In this document: positions 2,923 through 34,396 of the stretch, piece by piece | How the letters are laid out: each line of letters opens with the position of its first letter | Position numbering within the stretch: the first letter of the stretch is position 1 | Notes under the pieces: model-generated | Databases searched by the model: none | Told to the model about the DNA's origin: nothing | What the model saw: the letters and a program-made list of their open reading frames with translations, nothing else | Made by a program: the position numbers and the translations under genes | From: an uncultured Spartobacteria bacterium | GTDB taxonomy: Bacteria; Verrucomicrobiota; Verrucomicrobiia; Chthoniobacterales; Chthoniobacteraceae | Assembly (NCBI GenBank): GCA_903882875.1 | Contig: CAIRYQ010000019.1 | Coordinates: 1 to 34,396, forward strand | Reading direction: 5' to 3' | DNA: 34,396 bases

Positions 2923-4896
2923 ATGCCTTCGCGCCGACTTCAGATCCTTCTGTTCACGCTCTCGTTCGTCACGTTTGCGTGGTTTCATCAGGGTGGCGGG
3001 TGGAACCAGAATGCGCGTTTCGCCGAGGTGCGCGCGATTGTCGAGCAGGGCCGTTTTTCCGTGGACGACTACATGGTCTATCGTCCGGGGCAGCCGCGGC
3101 ATCTCGTGCGTCCGCAGATCGTGCGCGGCGAATTCACGCTCGACGGCGTGCGGCACCAGCTCTCGTGGGGCGCGTGGGAGAATGTCGGCACGGATGCGAA
3201 GCCGGACTGGCGGCAGATGGGATCGCACGGCGAACCGCTCGATCCCGCGGCGACGATGGTGATCATCGGCGAGGGCACCTGCACGGGCGATGTCGGCATC
3301 GCGCCGGACGGCCACTTTCATCCGAACAAACCGCCCGGCGCATCGCTGCTCGCGGTGCCGCCGTACTTTGCCATTTTCCACATCGAGCGCCTGCTCGGGA
3401 TCGATCCGGACGACTGGTGGGTGATGACGGTGAACGCGTGGCTCTGCTCGGTGTTCACGGTCGGGCTCGCATCGGCGCTCGGCGTCGTGCTCGTGCTGCG
3501 TGTCGCGTCGCAGATGTGGCCGGGGAAAACTCGCGCCGCGCTTGCAGCCGCGCTGTCGTTCGGATTCGGCACGACGTTCTTCCCGTTCGGCACGCTGATG
3601 TTTGATCACAACATCACCGCCGTGCTGCTGCTCGCGAGCTTCGCCGCGGTGAGGAATGGCCGTCCGCTTTCCGCGGGCGTGTGGGCGGGCGTGGCGGCGG
3701 TGACGAATTACCTCGCGGCGATCCCCGGCGCGTTTTTTGCGCTGTGGAGCCTTTGCGGCCGCCGGGGGAATGATGCGGGCACTCTTGAACGCGAAAATGC
3801 AAGTGGCGCGGACGACGCGGAAAATCCGCAATCGGATCAGCCCGCCTCCTGCCGTCGGCGGCTGCGGTGGGATGCTGCGCTCCGTTTCACGCTTGGAGTG
3901 CTGCCGTGTCTCGCGGTGCTGCTCGCATACAACGTGGCGGCATTCGGTTCGCCGTTCGCGCTGAACACGAGTTTTCAAAATCCGATCTTCAAGGAGATCA
4001 CGCCCGCGTTTCTCGGCATGTTCACGGCACCGAGCTGGTTTGCCACGCTCGTGATCTCGGTCTCGCCATGGCGGGGAGTCTTCGTGCTTTCGCCGGTGAT
4101 CATTGCGGCGGTGGCGGGACTTTTTCGCATGGGAAAAAAAGGGACGCTCCGTGCGGAACGCAGGCTCATCGTCGCGTGCGCGGCGTATTTTTTCCTGATC
4201 AACATCTGCTTCAACGGATTTCACGGCGGCTTTGCGGCGGGGCCGCGCTACCTCATTCCGGCGCTGCCTTTCGTATGCCTCGCGCTCGTGCCGGCGTTCG
4301 ACCGCTGGCCGTGCGTGACGACTGCGCTGGCCGCCGTGAGCATCGTGCAGCAGGCGCTGCTCACGATCACCGATGCGCTGAACCCGCTCGGCGTCGGCGC
4401 GCACGCTTGGGTGAACCATCCCGGCGAATGGAAGGACAAGCTCGTCGGCAACAGCCTCGTGTGGCGGTACGCATGGCCGCTGTTCGCGCACGGACGCGCG
4501 TGGCCGGTGATTGATGCGAAGTTCGAGGAGTGGTTCGAGTGGAAGCGCGCGAGGCAGGAGAAAGACGGACTGCCTGCCGCCGAATTGCAGACGCGGCTCT
4601 CGAAACTGCGCGAGGAAGGCCGCGCGAAAGTCATGCGCGGAGAATCCGAGCCGCTGTGGATCGCGGCGATGGACGGCCCGGTCTCGGTGAACACGCTCGG
4701 CATGTGGGACGGCACCTATTTCCAAAATTTCCCCGCGCACTCGCCCGCAGCCGAGTGGGCCGCGTTCAATGTGGGCGAGCTGATTTTCCCGAAGAGCCGG
4801 TGGAGCCTCGCGCCGCTGCTCGCGATGTGGATTGCGGGCGCGCTGCTGCTGCGGCGCATGTCACGCGCTGAAAGATGGGCGGGGGCGGCGGGATGA
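2923..4896 (+). CDS. multipass membrane protein, GT-C/PMT-like
   Basis: 657 residues with many hydrophobic segments: an N-terminal one at about 7-22, then a run of helices from about 165 to 460, and a last one near residue 640. A soluble loop after the first helix contains DDYMVYRPGQPRHLVRPQ. Further on there are HNITAVLLLASFAAVRNGRP, a charged cytoplasmic-looking insert near residues 285-310, and GFAAGPRYLIPALPF. The 'GPR.LIPALPF' motif and overall layout resemble glycosyltransferase-39/PMT-like polytopic proteins, which use lipid-linked sugars on the outer face of the membrane. I do not see a diagnostic catalytic DD/DE pair near the N-terminus, so the enzymatic role is inference. ATG 2923 fits the first membrane segment. 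Confidence 0.75.
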   Translation: MPSRRLQILLFTLSFVTFAWFHQGGGWNQNARFAEVRAIVEQGRFSVDDYMVYRPGQPRHLVRPQIVRGEFTLDGVRHQLSWGAWENVGTDAKPDWRQMGSHGEPLDPAATMVIIGEGTCTGDVGIAPDGHFHPNKPPGASLLAVPPYFAIFHIERLLGIDPDDWWVMTVNAWLCSVFTVGLASALGVVLVLRVASQMWPGKTRAALAAALSFGFGTTFFPFGTLMFDHNITAVLLLASFAAVRNGRPLSAGVWAGVAAVTNYLAAIPGAFFALWSLCGRRGNDAGTLERENASGADDAENPQSDQPASCRRRLRWDAALRFTLGVLPCLAVLLAYNVAAFGSPFALNTSFQNPIFKEITPAFLGMFTAPSWFATLVISVSPWRGVFVLSPVIIAAVAGLFRMGKKGTLRAERRLIVACAAYFFLINICFNGFHGGFAAGPRYLIPALPFVCLALVPAFDRWPCVTTALAAVSIVQQALLTITDALNPLGVGAHAWVNHPGEWKDKLVGNSLVWRYAWPLFAHGRAWPVIDAKFEEWFEWKRARQEKDGLPAAELQTRLSKLREEGRAKVMRGESEPLWIAAMDGPVSVNTLGMWDGTYFQNFPAHSPAAEWAAFNVGELIFPKSRWSLAPLLAMWIAGALLLRRMSRAERWAGAAG

Positions 4897-7106: not shown

Positions 7107-10100
7107 TCACGGCTTCGCATCCACCGATTCCGCGAGCCCCTTGCGCCGCACATGCAACAGCACCGGCAGCGACGCCTGCTTCCCCGATTCGCGCGAGACG
7201 GCAAAGACGAGCCGGTCCGTCTCCGGCACCCACGATGCGGCCTTGATGAAAATCTCCCCGGCATCCTGTCCTTCGAGCAGCGTGATGCCGTTCAGCCCGA
7301 GATTGTCCACCACGACGCCGTGCGGGAGATTCTCGACATCGAAACGCAGCGCGCCCTTCGCGCTCCCGCGTTTCAACACGACCCACGCACTCACCGTCTC
7401 GCCCGGCGCGATCGTAATCTCCGCGAGCTTCTCCCCATCGCCTTGCACGCTGCGCGAAAATGGCGGCGCATCGTTATTCGCGCCCGCGGGCTGGAGAGAC
7501 ACGATCATCGGCGCTTCGCCTTCCAGCTTCACATTCGCGATCTCACCCGCGGCGTGCGTGATCTTTTTTCCGCCAATCTCCGCGGTCGCTGAGATTTTTG
7601 CGGCGCTCCACTTCGCCGCATTCGGCAGCGCCGAGATGCTGCCCTTCGCCACGAGGTGCCCCGCTTGGATCACGATCGGACTCGTCACGCGCCAGCTTTC
7701 CGGCACACCGGAAATTTCGCACACGATGTCGCCATCGAAGCCGTCCTTCCGATCCGCCGTGAGCGTGAACGATGCGCCGCTGCCGACATTCACCACGCCC
7801 TCGGGCTCCGTCAGCTTCACCGCAAAATCCGGCTGCGCCTCGCGCGCGATCAGCCGGTACGCGAACCGCTCGCCCGCCGCCCCGCGGCTCTCGCGCACGC
7901 GGACGATAAAGTCGCCGTCCGCAGGCGCAGTGAAAAGCAGCCGTGAATCCGTGCCCGCATTGCGCGAGCCGTCGTCGTCATTCTCGTAGTTCAGCGTGAA
8001 AACCGGCAGGCCGTTCGCCACGAGCTTCGTGCCGGGCGGGTGCGGCTCCACGATGTAGCACGGCTCGTCCAGTGAGTGCGCGGTCGCCGTCGTGTCGAAG
8101 TAGGTGATGCGCTTGCCGCCATTCGTGTAAAACGCAAACCCGCTGTCCGGCCCCTCGGGCATCCGGAAAATTTTCGTCACCTCGCCCTGCATCCACATCA
8201 GTTCGTTCAGCTCCATCTCGCGCCAGTTGTCCACGCGCGCATCGGACACATTCGAGTCAATCGGACGGAACGTGATCGCGCTGTCGCGCACCGCCTGCAT
8301 GAGCAGCCGCTCGACGGGACGACCATCCGGCCACAGCACCGCGATCTTCGTGTCCGCCGGCGAGCCGCGCCGCGCGGCCTCCGTCTCGATCGCATACGTC
8401 ACGCCCTTCTTCGCCGTGAAGCGGAAATGATCCGACTCGCGCGCCGAAAGAAAACGCCCGCTGACTGAGAACGGCACATCGAGCTTCTGCGCGCCCACCA
8501 ACGTGCCGCATTCCTCCGACGCGACCCAATTCGGCGCGTCGCTCACCGGCAGCGACGCCTGCGCACGGCTGCGAAATTTCTGCGCCTCGAGCTTCACCGG
8601 AACCATCCCGCTCGCGCCGGACTTCACGGCCACCGTCCGCGCCGCCGGATCGGGCGGGAGATTGTAGCCGACGAGTTCCACTTTCGTCTCCGCGTTCGCC
8701 TGCACGCTCAGCGGAAACACACCCGTGACAAACGGCAGCGCGCCGATCGTGAGACTGTAAAAATGATCCGCGCTCCCGGTCATCAGCGCATCGCCCACGG
8801 CGATCGTGTAGCGCCCGTCCGAGATGAACCTGTGCGCGATGAACGGTTCGCCGCTCGAATCAAAGCTGCCGTTCGTCGCAAGCACGCGCCCCGCGGCATC
8901 CGTGAGCGTGAGCGTCGCCGCCGCTTTCGAGCCGAGCGACTTCGCCTCGCAGTTGAAAATGATCGTCGTCCCCGCCTTCGCCGCAAACTCGTAGCGGTCG
9001 CTCTCACCCGCCTTCGCGAGCGTGCCCCACACATTCGCGGGCAGCGCCGTCAGCCTCTGCATCGTCGCCTCGCCGGGAAAGGAGAGCACCGCGATGTCCT
9101 CGACATGCAGCATCGCGCGACCGATTTCCGTCCCGTCCGCGCCGCGCGCAACAATCGCATAGCCGCCGCGCGGCAGGTTCGCCGGAGTGGAAACCACGAG
9201 CGGCACCGAATCCTTTTCCGGCGCAGCCGCAAACACGCGCACGCGTGCGTCCTCGCATTTCACCGCGACGATCTGCGGAAGATTCGCCCCGGTGAGCCTC
9301 ACCTCGATCATCTTCCCGCGCTCAATCCCGCGCGGAGAAATCCCCGACACCGCCGGCCCCTTCGGCGGCACGGCCGGCTTCTCCATCGCCTTCTTCTTCG
9401 CCTGGCAGAAAATCTTCCGCGCGCGCAGCCGAAGATCCAGCGCGGTGAAACGCGTCGCTCCGCGCGCGTTTGAACTGCGTGTTGCAACCACCGCCTGCGG
9501 GAGGGAGGAAGCGTGCGTGGAGCGACACGCTCCACCGCGCATCCCGCTCTTCGGGCCCGCGATCAGCTTTCCTGTCTTCGCATCGTAAAACGCCACCGTG
9601 CCATCCGCGCGCCCCGTCACCACGGCGTTGCCGGAAAATGCGAGCGCCGTCGGCCAGTCCGGCTGCTTCTCCAGCAGCACGCGCTCCTTCACCTCCGCCG
9701 CATCCCACACGCGCACCGTGCCATCCTGCGCGGAACTCAGCATCGTCGCGCCATCCGCGCTCCACACGAGACGCAGGATCGCCTGCTCGTGCGCGAACCT
9801 CGCCACCACGAGCGGATTCGTCGTCTCCTTCGCGTCGGGCGAAACGCTCCACACGCGGATGCGGTTGTCCGCGCCCGCCGCCGCGAGCCGCTTCCCGTCC
9901 TTGCTCCACGCCACTGCAAACTGCTCCTTGCTGGGCTGGCTCAGCGTGTCGCGCCGCTCGCCGCTTGCCACGTCCCACAGCTTCACCGTGCGGTCCGCGC
10001 TCGCGCTCGCGATCAGTTTTCCGTCGGGACGGAACGCCAGCGCGAACACCGCGCCGTTGTGCCCGCTCAAGGTCTTCCGCTCCGTCGCATCCGCGACATT

Positions 10101-10874
10101 CCACAGCTTGATCTTCTGATCGTAGCTCCCCGTCGCGAGCGTCTTGCCATCGGGCGAAAGCGCGAGCGCGTAGATCACATCGCGGTGCCCCGTGAAAGTG
10201 CGCGCCACCTTCGTGCTCGCGACGTCCCACTGCCGCACCTCGCCCTCGATCGCATTCTCGCCCGACGCCGCGAAAAGTTGCGAGCCGTCCGCCGACCACA
10301 CGAGCGCATTCACCGCGCCGCGATGTCCGTCGAGCTTCTTCACCGCGACTTGCGAGACAGGATCCACCAGCTCAACGATGCTCCCGCGGCCCACCGCCAC
10401 GAGCTTCGCCTCCGCGGAAAATGCGAGCGCATTCACCGGTACGCGCGGCGCGACTTTCGGCGCGACCTTCGGCACCTCCACGATTTTCTTCCCCATCTCG
10501 CGCTGCGGCGGCTTCGCGCCCGCATCAATCCACTTCACAAATTTTTCCACGTCGTCCGCCGACAGCTTGTCGCGCTTGCCCGGCGGCATGAATTTCTTCT
10601 TCCCGTCCTTCACCACCTCGCCGCGCAGATACTTCACGAGCAGGCTCTCTCCCGATTTTCCCGCGATGAGCGCCGCACCGCTCTCGCCGCCCTTCAGGAT
10701 GTCCGCATGTTTTTCCAGCACGAGCTTCCCGTCCGGGTCATCCGCCGAATGGCAGTCGAGACACCGGTCCTCGATCAGCTTCGCGACCGCGGGAAAATAA
10801 TCCGGCTCCTCGGCACAAAGCGGGTGCAGCGGAATCACAAGGGCGAGCAACGGGAGGAAAAGGCGCGGCTTCAT
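7107..10874 (-). CDS. exported cytochrome c (planctomycete type)/WD40 protein with PPC-like C-terminal region
   Basis: 1,255 residues. A signal peptide covers about 1-21. A planctomycete-type cytochrome c domain follows, with the heme-binding motif CLDCH at 38-42 and FMPPGKRDKL supplying a candidate methionine ligand. A WD40 propeller spans about 140-440, with several GH..(X)..D(G)..L(A/F)(T/S)(A/G)S.D..(I/V)(K/R)(L/V)W units. An odd linker follows, then a long C-terminal part with Ig-like and PPC-like segments (ISPRGIERG..IEVRLTGANLP; NYENDDDGSRNAGTDSRLLFTAPADGDF). In Planctomycetes and Verrucomicrobia this architecture is common, extracytoplasmic, and of unknown physiological role. The linker is encoded by a palindromic repeat inserted at 9439-9540 (separate entry). 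No DUF1549/DUF1553 partner genes lie beside it. Confidence 0.9.
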   Translation of the reverse strand: MKPRLFLPLLALVIPLHPLCAEEPDYFPAVAKLIEDRCLDCHSADDPDGKLVLEKHADILKGGESGAALIAGKSGESLLVKYLRGEVVKDGKKKFMPPGKRDKLSADDVEKFVKWIDAGAKPPQREMGKKIVEVPKVAPKVAPRVPVNALAFSAEAKLVAVGRGSIVELVDPVSQVAVKKLDGHRGAVNALVWSADGSQLFAASGENAIEGEVRQWDVASTKVARTFTGHRDVIYALALSPDGKTLATGSYDQKIKLWNVADATERKTLSGHNGAVFALAFRPDGKLIASASADRTVKLWDVASGERRDTLSQPSKEQFAVAWSKDGKRLAAAGADNRIRVWSVSPDAKETTNPLVVARFAHEQAILRLVWSADGATMLSSAQDGTVRVWDAAEVKERVLLEKQPDWPTALAFSGNAVVTGRADGTVAFYDAKTGKLIAGPKSGMRGGACRSTHASSLPQAVVATRSSNARGATRFTALDLRLRARKIFCQAKKKAMEKPAVPPKGPAVSGISPRGIERGKMIEVRLTGANLPQIVAVKCEDARVRVFAAAPEKDSVPLVVSTPANLPRGGYAIVARGADGTEIGRAMLHVEDIAVLSFPGEATMQRLTALPANVWGTLAKAGESDRYEFAAKAGTTIIFNCEAKSLGSKAAATLTLTDAAGRVLATNGSFDSSGEPFIAHRFISDGRYTIAVGDALMTGSADHFYSLTIGALPFVTGVFPLSVQANAETKVELVGYNLPPDPAARTVAVKSGASGMVPVKLEAQKFRSRAQASLPVSDAPNWVASEECGTLVGAQKLDVPFSVSGRFLSARESDHFRFTAKKGVTYAIETEAARRGSPADTKIAVLWPDGRPVERLLMQAVRDSAITFRPIDSNVSDARVDNWREMELNELMWMQGEVTKIFRMPEGPDSGFAFYTNGGKRITYFDTTATAHSLDEPCYIVEPHPPGTKLVANGLPVFTLNYENDDDGSRNAGTDSRLLFTAPADGDFIVRVRESRGAAGERFAYRLIAREAQPDFAVKLTEPEGVVNVGSGASFTLTADRKDGFDGDIVCEISGVPESWRVTSPIVIQAGHLVAKGSISALPNAAKWSAAKISATAEIGGKKITHAAGEIANVKLEGEAPMIVSLQPAGANNDAPPFSRSVQGDGEKLAEITIAPGETVSAWVVLKRGSAKGALRFDVENLPHGVVVDNLGLNGITLLEGQDAGEIFIKAASWVPETDRLVFAVSRESGKQASLPVLLHVRRKGLAESVDAKP
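9439..9540 (-). repeat. palindromic repeat element, copy 1, inside the cytochrome/WD40 gene
   Basis: The left arm gcgcggtgaaacgcgtcgct and its continuation pair with the right arm ending agcgacacgctccaccgcgc. I count about 28 of 33 positions complementary. It is the same family as 13073-13161 and 34171-34259, sharing gtcgctccgcgcgcgtt and the inner gtt.gcaa/cctgc pattern. It is flanked by the 4-bp direct repeat atcc (9435-9438 and 9541-9544), a possible target duplication. The host reading frame passes through it unbroken and gains about 34 residues (starting GGACRSTHASS). Confidence 0.85.
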
Positions 10875-10985: not shown

Positions 10986-11204
10986 AACGCCAACGGCGTT
11001 CCATCATCCAGCCCAGGGTTGGCGCGACGCAGGAGCGGCTACCCCGGGTCTGCCAATGGAAAGGCATCAACCCTGAAAGGGTTGAATTCGCAGCCATGCG
11101 ACGGAGATGCAACCCTTTCAGGGGTGATGCACGACACGGAACCACGTCCCAGGGTAGCTCGTTCCTCGCAACCCTGGGCTGATAGGTGGAACGCCGTTGG
11201 CGTT
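10986..11204. repeat. 219-bp compound palindrome (nested inverted repeats)
   Basis: The ends are a perfect 17-bp inverted repeat: aacgccaacggcgttcc at 10986-11002 and its complement at 11188-11204. Nested inside are a perfect 13-bp pair (cagcccagggttg at 11009-11021 with 11169-11181), an imperfect pair (gctacccc... at 11038-11054 with 11143-11159) and a 21-bp pair with one mismatch (11064-11084 with 11110-11130). The spacing is symmetrical, so the whole unit could fold as one long interrupted hairpin with its apex near 11097. It fills most of the gene-free stretch 10875-11240; I see no coding gene in it. Confidence 0.9.
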
Positions 11205-12417: not shown

Positions 12418-12653
12418 AGGATCGGTGGCTGTGCCACGTTTCTCATTCTCCGCTCCTGCTTCAAAACCGCGAGATGCTCTTTGTTCGCCATACGCGCGTC
12501 AGTTGAAGCACTCCGCAGCCCGGCAGGCCAAGCGGAAACTCGGCGCGCATCCAAATGGGGCCAGCCGGCCTCCCTTGGACGAGGAAACAACGTCCGGCTT
12601 CGCAAGCCATTGTCCCTCAGGGCCTGACGCGCGGCCTCTCAACCCTTTCGCAC

Positions 12654-12928
12654 GGGCCTCGGAAGGTCACGCGCGACGTTCTGAACCTTGCAAACGGGCC
12701 TCCGAGCCCCGCGCGCAACGCCCGGAGCCTCGCATCGCAAGGCTCGGAACCCGGCGCACGAGCCTCGGAACGTCGCGCGCGACACTCTGAGCCTTGCAAA
12801 CGGGCCTCCGAACCCCGTGCGCGACGCTCTGAGCCTCGCACCGCGAGGCTCAGAACCCGGCGCGCGAGCCTCGGAACGTCGCGCGCGACACTCTGAGCCT
12901 TGCGCGCGGGCCTCAGACTGCCGGCCAC
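12654..12928. repeat. 21/22-bp minisatellite with a 106-bp higher-order period
   Basis: Degenerate units of 21 bp (one in five is 22 bp) carry a core like gcctcggaac followed by gcgcg. Five units form a higher-order block of 106 bp: gggcctc recurs at 12696, 12802 and 12908, with near-identical order of sub-units between. Two further units precede the first block (12654-12695). Heptad-like peptides (GSE.RAR on the minus strand, SEP..AR on the plus strand) appear in all open frames; none can be singled out as a gene. The rest of the stretch 12418-13303 holds copy 2 of the palindrome and no gene I can support. Confidence 0.9.
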
Positions 12929-13072
12929 CAGCTCCAAAGCGTCGCGCTTGAGCGGATACCCGTGGCGTGTGGCTTCCCGCACGATACCTCTCGCTTCCGG
13001 CATCCCTGCTCCCAGAGCGATTTGCGTTAACGAGTGGCCGTTATTGGATTGGATGAAGACGCGGCAGCGTCG

Positions 13073-13161
13073 GTGGAGCGCGTCGCTCCGCGCGCGCTTC
13101 TTGCGGCTGCAAGCAAGCCCTGCAATCCGCGCCCAAACGCGCGCGGAGCGACGCGTTCCAC
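13073..13161 (+). repeat. palindromic repeat element, copy 2
   Basis: The left arm gtggagcgcgtcgctccgcg pairs with the right arm ending cggagcgacgcgttccac. Its reverse complement aligns along its whole length with copy 3 (34171-34259), including the inner attgca...gcttgcttgcag. It therefore belongs to the same family but lies in the opposite orientation. It is in the gene-free stretch upstream of the sulfatase gene. Confidence 0.9.
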
Positions 13162-13303
13162 GCATTCATCATTCGAGATTGAATGCGTCTGGATCGTGGC
13201 TCGATTTCCTTGGGGTACCGATCGTGAGATTTGCGCAACCAATCCGAAAATGATTGCGGGAAAAGGTGCCGGCAAAAGGTAGTCACAAGCACCGTTTCCT
13301 TCC

Positions 13304-34061: not shown

Positions 34062-34170
34062 CGGGAACCAACGCCCTGCGCGCCCTCTCGGGCGCCATTC
34101 ACGAATCCTCCGGGGCCGACTTTGCCAGGGCATTTTCAGTTCAAGTGCAGCCGCAGTGGTTCGTGGAACG

Positions 34171-34259
34171 GTGGAACGCGCCGCTCCGCGCGCGTTTCGG
34201 GGGGATTGCGAGGCCTGCTTGCAGTCGAAGGAAGCGCGCGCGGAGCGATGCGCTCCACC
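34171..34259 (-). repeat. palindromic repeat element, copy 3
   Basis: The left arm ggtggaacgcgccgctccgc pairs with the right arm ending cggagcgatgcgctccacc. It is the same length (89 bp) as copy 2 but in reverse orientation, and in the same orientation as copy 1. It lies about 110 bp after the hydrolase stop; no gene is visible in 34062-34396. Confidence 0.9.
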
Positions 34260-34280
34260 CTGCCGCCTTCCCGGTGCCAG

Positions 34281-34396
34281 CCGAGAATCTCGGCTGAGGA
34301 CGGGGAGACTCGGGAACGCTGGCCGAGAATCTCGGCTGAGGATGGGGAGACTCGGGAACGCTGGCCGAGAATCTCGGCTGAGGACGGGGAGACTCG
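34281..34396. repeat. 42-bp tandem array, at least 2.8 units, runs off the window
   Basis: Units start at 34281, 34323 and 34365, almost identical (one c/t difference seen). Each unit carries the perfect 15-bp palindrome gccgagaatctcggc. On the minus strand a frame would read 14-residue repeats (S.SAEILGQRSRVSP). The array continues beyond the window. Confidence 0.95.

Follow-up and report, generated by a model that had tools for sequence, protein, structure and literature searches.

A palindromic mobile-type repeat read in frame within a WD40-cytochrome gene of a Spartobacteria bacterium, with in-frame repeats and transposase domains in related genomes

We analyzed a 34,396-nucleotide stretch of contig CAIRYQ010000019.1 (assembly GCA_903882875.1) from an uncultured Spartobacteria bacterium, hereafter the window, and a palindromic repeat that lies inside the reading frame of one of its genes. 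The genome from which the window comes (G000) is a 5.78 Mb draft assembly of 129 contigs. Three copies of the repeat family are present in the window, one within the gene and two intergenic. The features at the locus are as follows.

7107..10874, minus strand: host gene (1,255 aa), encoding an N-terminal CxxCH cytochrome-like segment (motif read directly), a WD40 propeller, a linker and second beta domain(s)
9363..9545, minus strand: predicted disordered linker (pLDDT below 50), host residues 444-504, enclosing the entire insert
9444..9536, minus strand: in-gene element copy, core of 93 nt, host codons 447-477, with GCGC on either side (9440-9540)
9444..9468, plus strand: left arm GGTGAAACGCGTCGCTCCGCGCGCG of the in-gene copy, 1 mismatch to the arm pattern
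9512..9536, minus strand: right arm of the in-gene copy, inverted, 2 mismatches to the arm pattern
13072..13162, plus strand: 91-nt family member, intergenic
34170..34259, plus strand: 90-nt family member, intergenic

A preliminary description of the window had proposed that a mobile-type palindromic element lies in frame inside the 1,255-residue gene, and this was borne out. Both arms are matched, the host frame continues unbroken across the element, codon use is coding-like on either side, and a gapped alignment to the family consensus gives 77.6% identity (300 shuffles: mean 52%, maximum 58%). The membership of the in-gene copy in one family with the intergenic copies at 13072-13162 and 34170-34259 also stands, as does the estimate of about 34 added residues: the core is exactly 31 codons (447-477), and about 34 are reached if the GCGC flanks are counted. 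The consensus, built from 18 copies that are each 91 nt long, consists of inverted arms GGTGGARCGCGTCGCTCCGCGCGCG (25 nt each) flanking ~41 nt. It contains no stop codon in any of the six frames, and, frame by frame, 24 to 30 of the 30 copies are open. Its predicted fold has an energy of about -70 kcal/mol. GTAG is absent, and CGTC sits inside the paired 5' arm, where a tag would stand unpaired ahead of a stem of 8-9 bp. The copy inside the gene, 93 nt long versus 91 nt for the consensus, is in codon phase and more diverged than most (77.6% versus 78-96% among the genome's other 21 two-armed copies).

Longer flanks are shared by many copies (among others L103, L099, L120 and the one at window 34133-34153), with TTTTCAGTTAAAGTGTAGCCG on one side and GGCGCTGCCGCGCCTTCATCC on the other, and may mark a larger outer element. 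Eight occurrences of an outer flank motif (TTTT...GTGTAGCCG) were counted in the genome (control: 0); five adjoin a core copy and three do not, and the motif may be part of an outer element or a second repeat. At the end of the contig, a 42-nt tandem array (window 34280-34396) adjoins an element copy, and a similar array adjoins another copy, in L117, to the right of position 3470.

A search of the genome with the arm pattern gave 67 matches at up to 3 mismatches, versus 5 for the reversed control pattern. Grouping of rows that have one or more arms within 2 mismatches yielded 41 copies, seven of which are at contig ends, leaving 34 for which gene context is testable. Sixteen lie between tandem, eight between convergent and two between divergent genes, seven have no neighbour in view, and one is inside a gene. 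The preliminary description had suggested counting copies inside and outside genes; the single in-gene copy of 34 compares with about 25 expected from the coding fraction of 0.73 given by our own gene caller (P about 4e-18). Among 97 genomes ranging from genus to order, G000 included, five have matches: G000, G004 (20 arms), G003 (4 arms), and G020 and G038 (one stray arm each). The control pattern has two matches in total across these genomes. G000, G003 and G004 belong to one genus, and the family is nearly confined to these three. None of the nine copies fetched from G004 is inside a gene, and one of the four places in G003 is in frame in a gene. A copy overlapping the C-terminal end of an open reading frame (L131) was set aside as a weak case.

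The in-frame copy in G003 (L130; 70 nt, 71% identity to the consensus) lies in a prolyl oligopeptidase (Pfam PF02897 and PF00326), within a loop of the propeller. The stretch with the insert is 42 residues long in this protein, versus 15 in the best-matching solved chain (6jci). The element is absent from this loop in five congeners (G000, G002, G004, G006 and G009), and in two of these, G002 and G006, the same loop carries a (CTCTCAA)n array. This array type has 14 (G002) and 51 (G006) overlapping matches, loop sites included; the reversed control is uninformative here because the pattern is its own mirror. We infer that most in-gene insertions are removed by selection, and that the survivors are those in linkers and surface loops.

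The setting of the insert was examined using AlphaFold2 for host residues 130-640 (model residue 1 is host residue 130, and the linker is model residues 315-375) and 17 homologues. The confidence score (pLDDT) is above 90 across most of the propeller and below 50 at residues 444-504, so that the insert lies, as first described, in the linker that follows the WD40 propeller, which is predicted to be disordered. The junction was examined in 24 of 39 homologue loci. Eighteen read through it without a stop, and most of these have short linkers. The other six (L145, L155, L161, L163, L164 and L165) are two neighbouring genes, split at the linker junction, the second of which opens with a hydrophobic leader of signal-peptide type (read by eye, without a predictor). 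These six loci, with stops or frame shifts at the junction, and a truncated match (L176) were left out of the structure alignment. Because homologues are split at this point, the linker is a joint between units able to stand apart. This character of the joint explains the tolerance of the insert better than does the element alone.

Two of the split loci have further features. In L163 (SXTU01000066.1), the two host halves stand ~1 kb apart, and the other sequence between them contains a long open frame together with GGGGGAGAGGG-type repeats. L164 (CALQJI020000082.1) is titled Klebsiella pneumoniae, yet the homologues are otherwise from Verrucomicrobia records, and the label looks wrong.

Orthologues from close relatives were expected to lack the inserted segment, and this is the case in the congeners G001 and G007, where the linker is without repeat and the span comprises 69 and 63 residues, versus 96 in the window protein; the segment is neither a chance match nor conserved linker sequence. 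The same span is 32-54 residues long in 13 more distant intact homologues, and 21 in the truncated match L176. The orthologues of G003 and G004 are 81% and 88% identical to the window protein fragment, with spans of 124 and 78 residues, and each carries an insert at the linker. That of G003 is a palindromic repeat with GGGCATNCTGCCCGC-type units and encodes AGILPA...GRMPG; that of G004 is a heptad array, (CGTCCAA)n, a direct tandem repeat that encodes ERPTSNVQRRTSKV. Both belong to repeats found elsewhere in the genus. The GGGCATNCTGCCCGC pattern has two matches in G003, one of them the linker insert, and 24 in the congener G008 (control: 0 in both, and one match across all 38 genomes). The CGTCCAA heptad has 65 overlapping matches in G004 (about 30 places, the linker included) and 24 in G003 (control: 0). 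The inserted peptides of the three sister species have no evident shared sequence, and the frame is kept in all. Three unrelated repeats thus occupy one protein joint in three sister species.

On this evidence, the segment at 9440-9540 is very probably a non-autonomous palindromic mobile element of a family restricted to the genus, similar to a dimer of repetitive extragenic palindromic sequences (REPs), to a bacterial interspersed mosaic element (BIME) or to a miniature inverted-repeat transposable element (MITE), that inserted into an already fused WD40-cytochrome gene. The element would have moved into the host gene, and would be tolerated and translated since it has no stop codon in any frame and since the site is a disordered linker joining two domains, which some relatives encode as separate genes. 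A full-length protein would be made from the open host frame.

The order of fusion and insertion could be reversed: the linker may be a former intergenic spacer in which repeats were present, and which became coding when the two genes fused. The six split homologues, with the signal-peptide-like start of their second gene, fit this course of events, as does the fact that all three kinds of repeat are mostly outside genes in the loci examined. However, in the outgroup congeners G001 and G007 the gene is fused already, with no repeat present, and the 18 homologues that read through the junction mostly have short linkers, so the fusion is most simply older than the repeats. The linker DNA of G000 and G003 is also common up to GGGATGC and diverges beyond it. 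We regard an origin from a spacer as improbable.

Slightly less probable again is a role of the hairpin in RNA or DNA (as an attenuator, as a stabiliser of mRNA, or in separate expression of the two halves), with the reading frame incidental. The strongly negative folding energy of the consensus and the placement of copies, as for REPs mostly between tandem or convergent genes and rarely between divergent ones, are in its favor, but the bias of convergent over divergent placement is not significant (Fisher P = 0.16), the in-gene copy retains the frame with 93 nt despite the 91-nt consensus, and the heptad array at the same site in a sister species is a direct tandem repeat. Least likely of the three is that the peptide was retained for a benefit that a longer, basic linker brings to the host protein: three different long linkers are kept in frame in three sister species, but their peptides have no evident common sequence, and a span of 32-69 residues is found in G001, G007 and the 13 other intact homologues.

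If the segment is an inserted mobile element, a Y1/HUH (REP-associated) transposase that leaves no target duplication most likely moved it in trans. The preliminary description had taken a 4-bp flanking repeat, atcc, as a sign of insertion, and this did not hold up: over 31 copies (30 two-armed copies and L130), no direct-repeat length or offset clearly stands out from re-paired flanks, and the largest excess is four copies versus 0.8 expected. Y1 enzymes of the IS200/IS605 type insert without target duplication. The lack of such a duplication, together with the presence in the genus of such transposases, in frame and with palindromic brackets (below), is what points to these enzymes. Genes with a Y1_Tnp domain are present in 22 of 23 genomes searched, three of them in G000. 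The pairing of a REP with its transposase gene (REPtron) was not seen in G000, although a REPtron may have been missed, as this is a draft of 129 contigs with seven copies at contig ends. Among the arm matches of this draft genome and the Y1_Tnp loci inspected, no two arms were seen a transposon's length apart around a transposase.

Several observations weigh against the proposed insertion and its mechanism. None of the three Y1_Tnp loci of G000 and none of nine others is flanked by element arms (up to 4 mismatches); two of 17 further Y1_Tnp loci hold one stray arm each, and genes of this type are equally common in congeners that lack the element. The exact empty site was not found among the orthologues, as the flanking linker DNA is too diverged for placement at the level of single bases. 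Read-through is seen at the level of the open frame, and the element falls outside the GTAG- and CGTC-tagged REPs. In addition, at a site used by a heptad array in the RlmN gene of G004, all 14 other genomes examined lack a comparable insert (matching pieces 0-15 nt apart); reuse of the same site is no rule across insertion sites.

Other repeats of the window include an inverted repeat at 10986-11204, just upstream of the host gene. Its CATCATCCAGCCCAGGGTTG segment matches, with 1 mismatch, on both sides of a Y1_Tnp gene of G000 (contig C3; L033:1372-1391 and 2000-2019), so this repeat looks like one that belongs to an identified transposase. Also present are a 21-nt-period array (498-938), three 106-nt units (12649-12966) and a 212-nt direct repeat of 88% identity (18158-18369/19277-19488).

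Insertion of repeats in frame is not confined to the host gene. Codon statistics place 5 of the 41 heptad arrays in the grouped loci of G003 and G004 in frame, and four of these have homology support, in the WD40-cytochrome host gene and in genes for an MBOAT protein, a UvrD helicase and RlmN. For the GGGCATNCTGCCCGC repeat we took 21 of the 24 matches of G008 and both of G003, giving 27 places at up to 1 mismatch. Six were flagged as in frame: the G003 host gene, a penicillin-binding protein, three in one alanyl-tRNA synthetase (AlaRS) of G008, and one presumed false positive. Among the flagged cases, a 15-nt match in a putative nusA (L267) was dropped as due to chance, and L259 was dropped as an in-frame flag without homology support. 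The AlaRS of G000 itself (L297 / L342, contig C68) has a long (SPTGGAS)-type tandem peptide repeat after a conserved STLP, and at this point different repeats or long segments are present in G002, G006 and G037.

A search with AlaRS showed that a ~200-residue segment of the protein matched other loci, which had already been listed as Y1_Tnp matches. Reading of the frames and scanning of families then identified ten cases, in five protein families and six genomes, in which the domain of a REP-associated tyrosine transposase (RAYT; Y1/HUH) lies in frame, with no stop:

AlaRS: G008 (L341:1890-2510), G004 (L340) and G002 (L339)
Threonyl-tRNA synthetase (ThrRS): G008 (L329:2965-3583)
RecG: G008 (L328:3375-4048) and G037 (L334:3404-3975)
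ClpB: L327:3096-3843, L330 and L331 (G008, G002 and G014)
Valyl-tRNA synthetase (ValRS): G040 (L333:3152-3884)

Every host protein scanned with NCBIfam passes at least one equivalog cut-off (AlaRS 3/3, ClpB 1/1, RecG 2/2, ThrRS 1/1, ValRS 1/1), and the RecG of G008 falls just short of two other RecG models; the ClpB assignments of G002 and G014 rest on Pfam. The transposase model NF047646 scores under its own cut-off in 8 of 9 proteins (53-77 bits versus 80) and over it in one, and PF01797 is over its cut-off in 8 of the 9 proteins scanned with Pfam. No intein domain was found in the Pfam scan of these nine transposase-bearing proteins. In five of seven regions tested (AlaRS, ThrRS, RecG and ClpB of G008, and RecG of G037), the insert lies between inverted repeats that are 40-95 nt long and 83-92% complementary. 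The ValRS insert of G040 has 64-nt direct repeats, each of them palindromic, and a methylase-like frame of G003 has direct repeats of 53 nt. The brackets of the G008 AlaRS are of the repeat type that forms the short insert in the G003 host gene (up to 1 mismatch over the 15-nt pattern). Only one of 24 matches to the AlaRS query in G008 is AlaRS, so the interrupted gene appears to be the sole copy in this draft.

Two kinds of candidate were not counted among the inserts: the RecF loci of G003 and G008, where the transposase frame is 5' of recF and, though open, may not be translated together with it into a single protein, and the transposase-bearing methylase-like frames of G003 and G036, which have no family scan behind them. 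A tree was calculated for 14 in-frame transposases (free-standing ones fell outside the motif filter). The three ClpB transposases form one clade (100/99), and two transposases beside recF pair at lower support (92/94); these groupings fit inheritance or gene-specific homing. The AlaRS, ThrRS, RecG and methylase group has no resolved branching. The literature searched, which was open-licence and covered mostly by listing, yielded no account of RAYT genes lying in frame within housekeeping genes. A few unexpectedly long proteins were discarded as products of gene fusions or annotation errors, according to the accessible part of one study (PMC6006769), and RAYT does not occur in the accessible part of another (PMC8987985).

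The preliminary description knew of no equivalent in Verrucomicrobia-like bacteria, which does not hold: intragenic REPs have been published, and are most numerous for the GTAG REPs of Opitutus terrae (Verrucomicrobiota) (PMC3733652). As far as the available sections of that report go, intragenic REPs are often dimers that encode 20-30 residues, with targets including UvrA, UvrD/REP helicase and tRNA synthetases, and two different REPs are found at about the same site of two Xanthomonas recB genes (PMC3733652). As in O. terrae, palindromic repeats here lie inside genes of Verrucomicrobiota, and UvrD and AlaRS recur as targets of other repeat families. The same-site repeats described here differ from those REPs in including tandem heptads besides palindromes. 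GTAG/CGTC REPs are defined there as 20-40 bp stem-loops that carry an unpaired tag, GTAG or CGTC, on one end, are mostly intergenic between tandem or convergent genes, and, if of GTAG type, associate with a RAYT gene in a REPtron (PMC3733652). The window family differs in having no tag, a 91-nt core with two 25-nt arms, and no RAYT found with such ends. Like Rickettsia palindromic elements (RPEs), the window copy and that in the G003 prolyl oligopeptidase are palindromes that can be read in frame in unrelated genes, judged here from the open frame. Nearly half of RPEs lie in open reading frames, in the account available to us (PMC10969869), versus 1 of 34 testable copies here. REPs are also reported in frame inside tnpA-REP genes of subclass 2.4 (PMC6006769, accessible part), where, as here, insertion is tolerated between protein motifs; the host there is the transposase itself and here an unrelated cellular gene. 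The family resembles MITEs in being short and non-coding, with long, near-perfect terminal inverted repeats (the 25-nt arms) and many copies (41). Unlike MITEs, it shows no consistent target duplication, and no autonomous transposon with matching ends was found in the loci searched.

In summary, the preliminary interpretation is partly supported, and missed the points that need other genomes: the differing repeats of sister species, the joint at which genes are fused or split, and the in-frame RAYT domains. By itself the finding in the window extends a known phenomenon. What is unusual is the occurrence of three unrelated repeats at one joint, and of transposase domains in frame in enzymes presumably indispensable to the relatives that carry them. 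We tentatively suggest, as a possibility we hold at somewhat less than even, that mobile repeats in this clade have become compatible with protein coding. Stop-free palindromes, heptad arrays and bracketed, stop-less RAYT genes would live in frame in essential genes (AlaRS, ThrRS, ValRS, ClpB and RecG) as intein-like inserts, tolerated without being spliced; the window element would be a non-autonomous counterpart. The natural series of empty site, short repeat and whole transposase offers a gauge of which protein sites tolerate mobile DNA, and bears on the adaptation of inserts to read-through and on how non-coding repeats turn into protein sequence.
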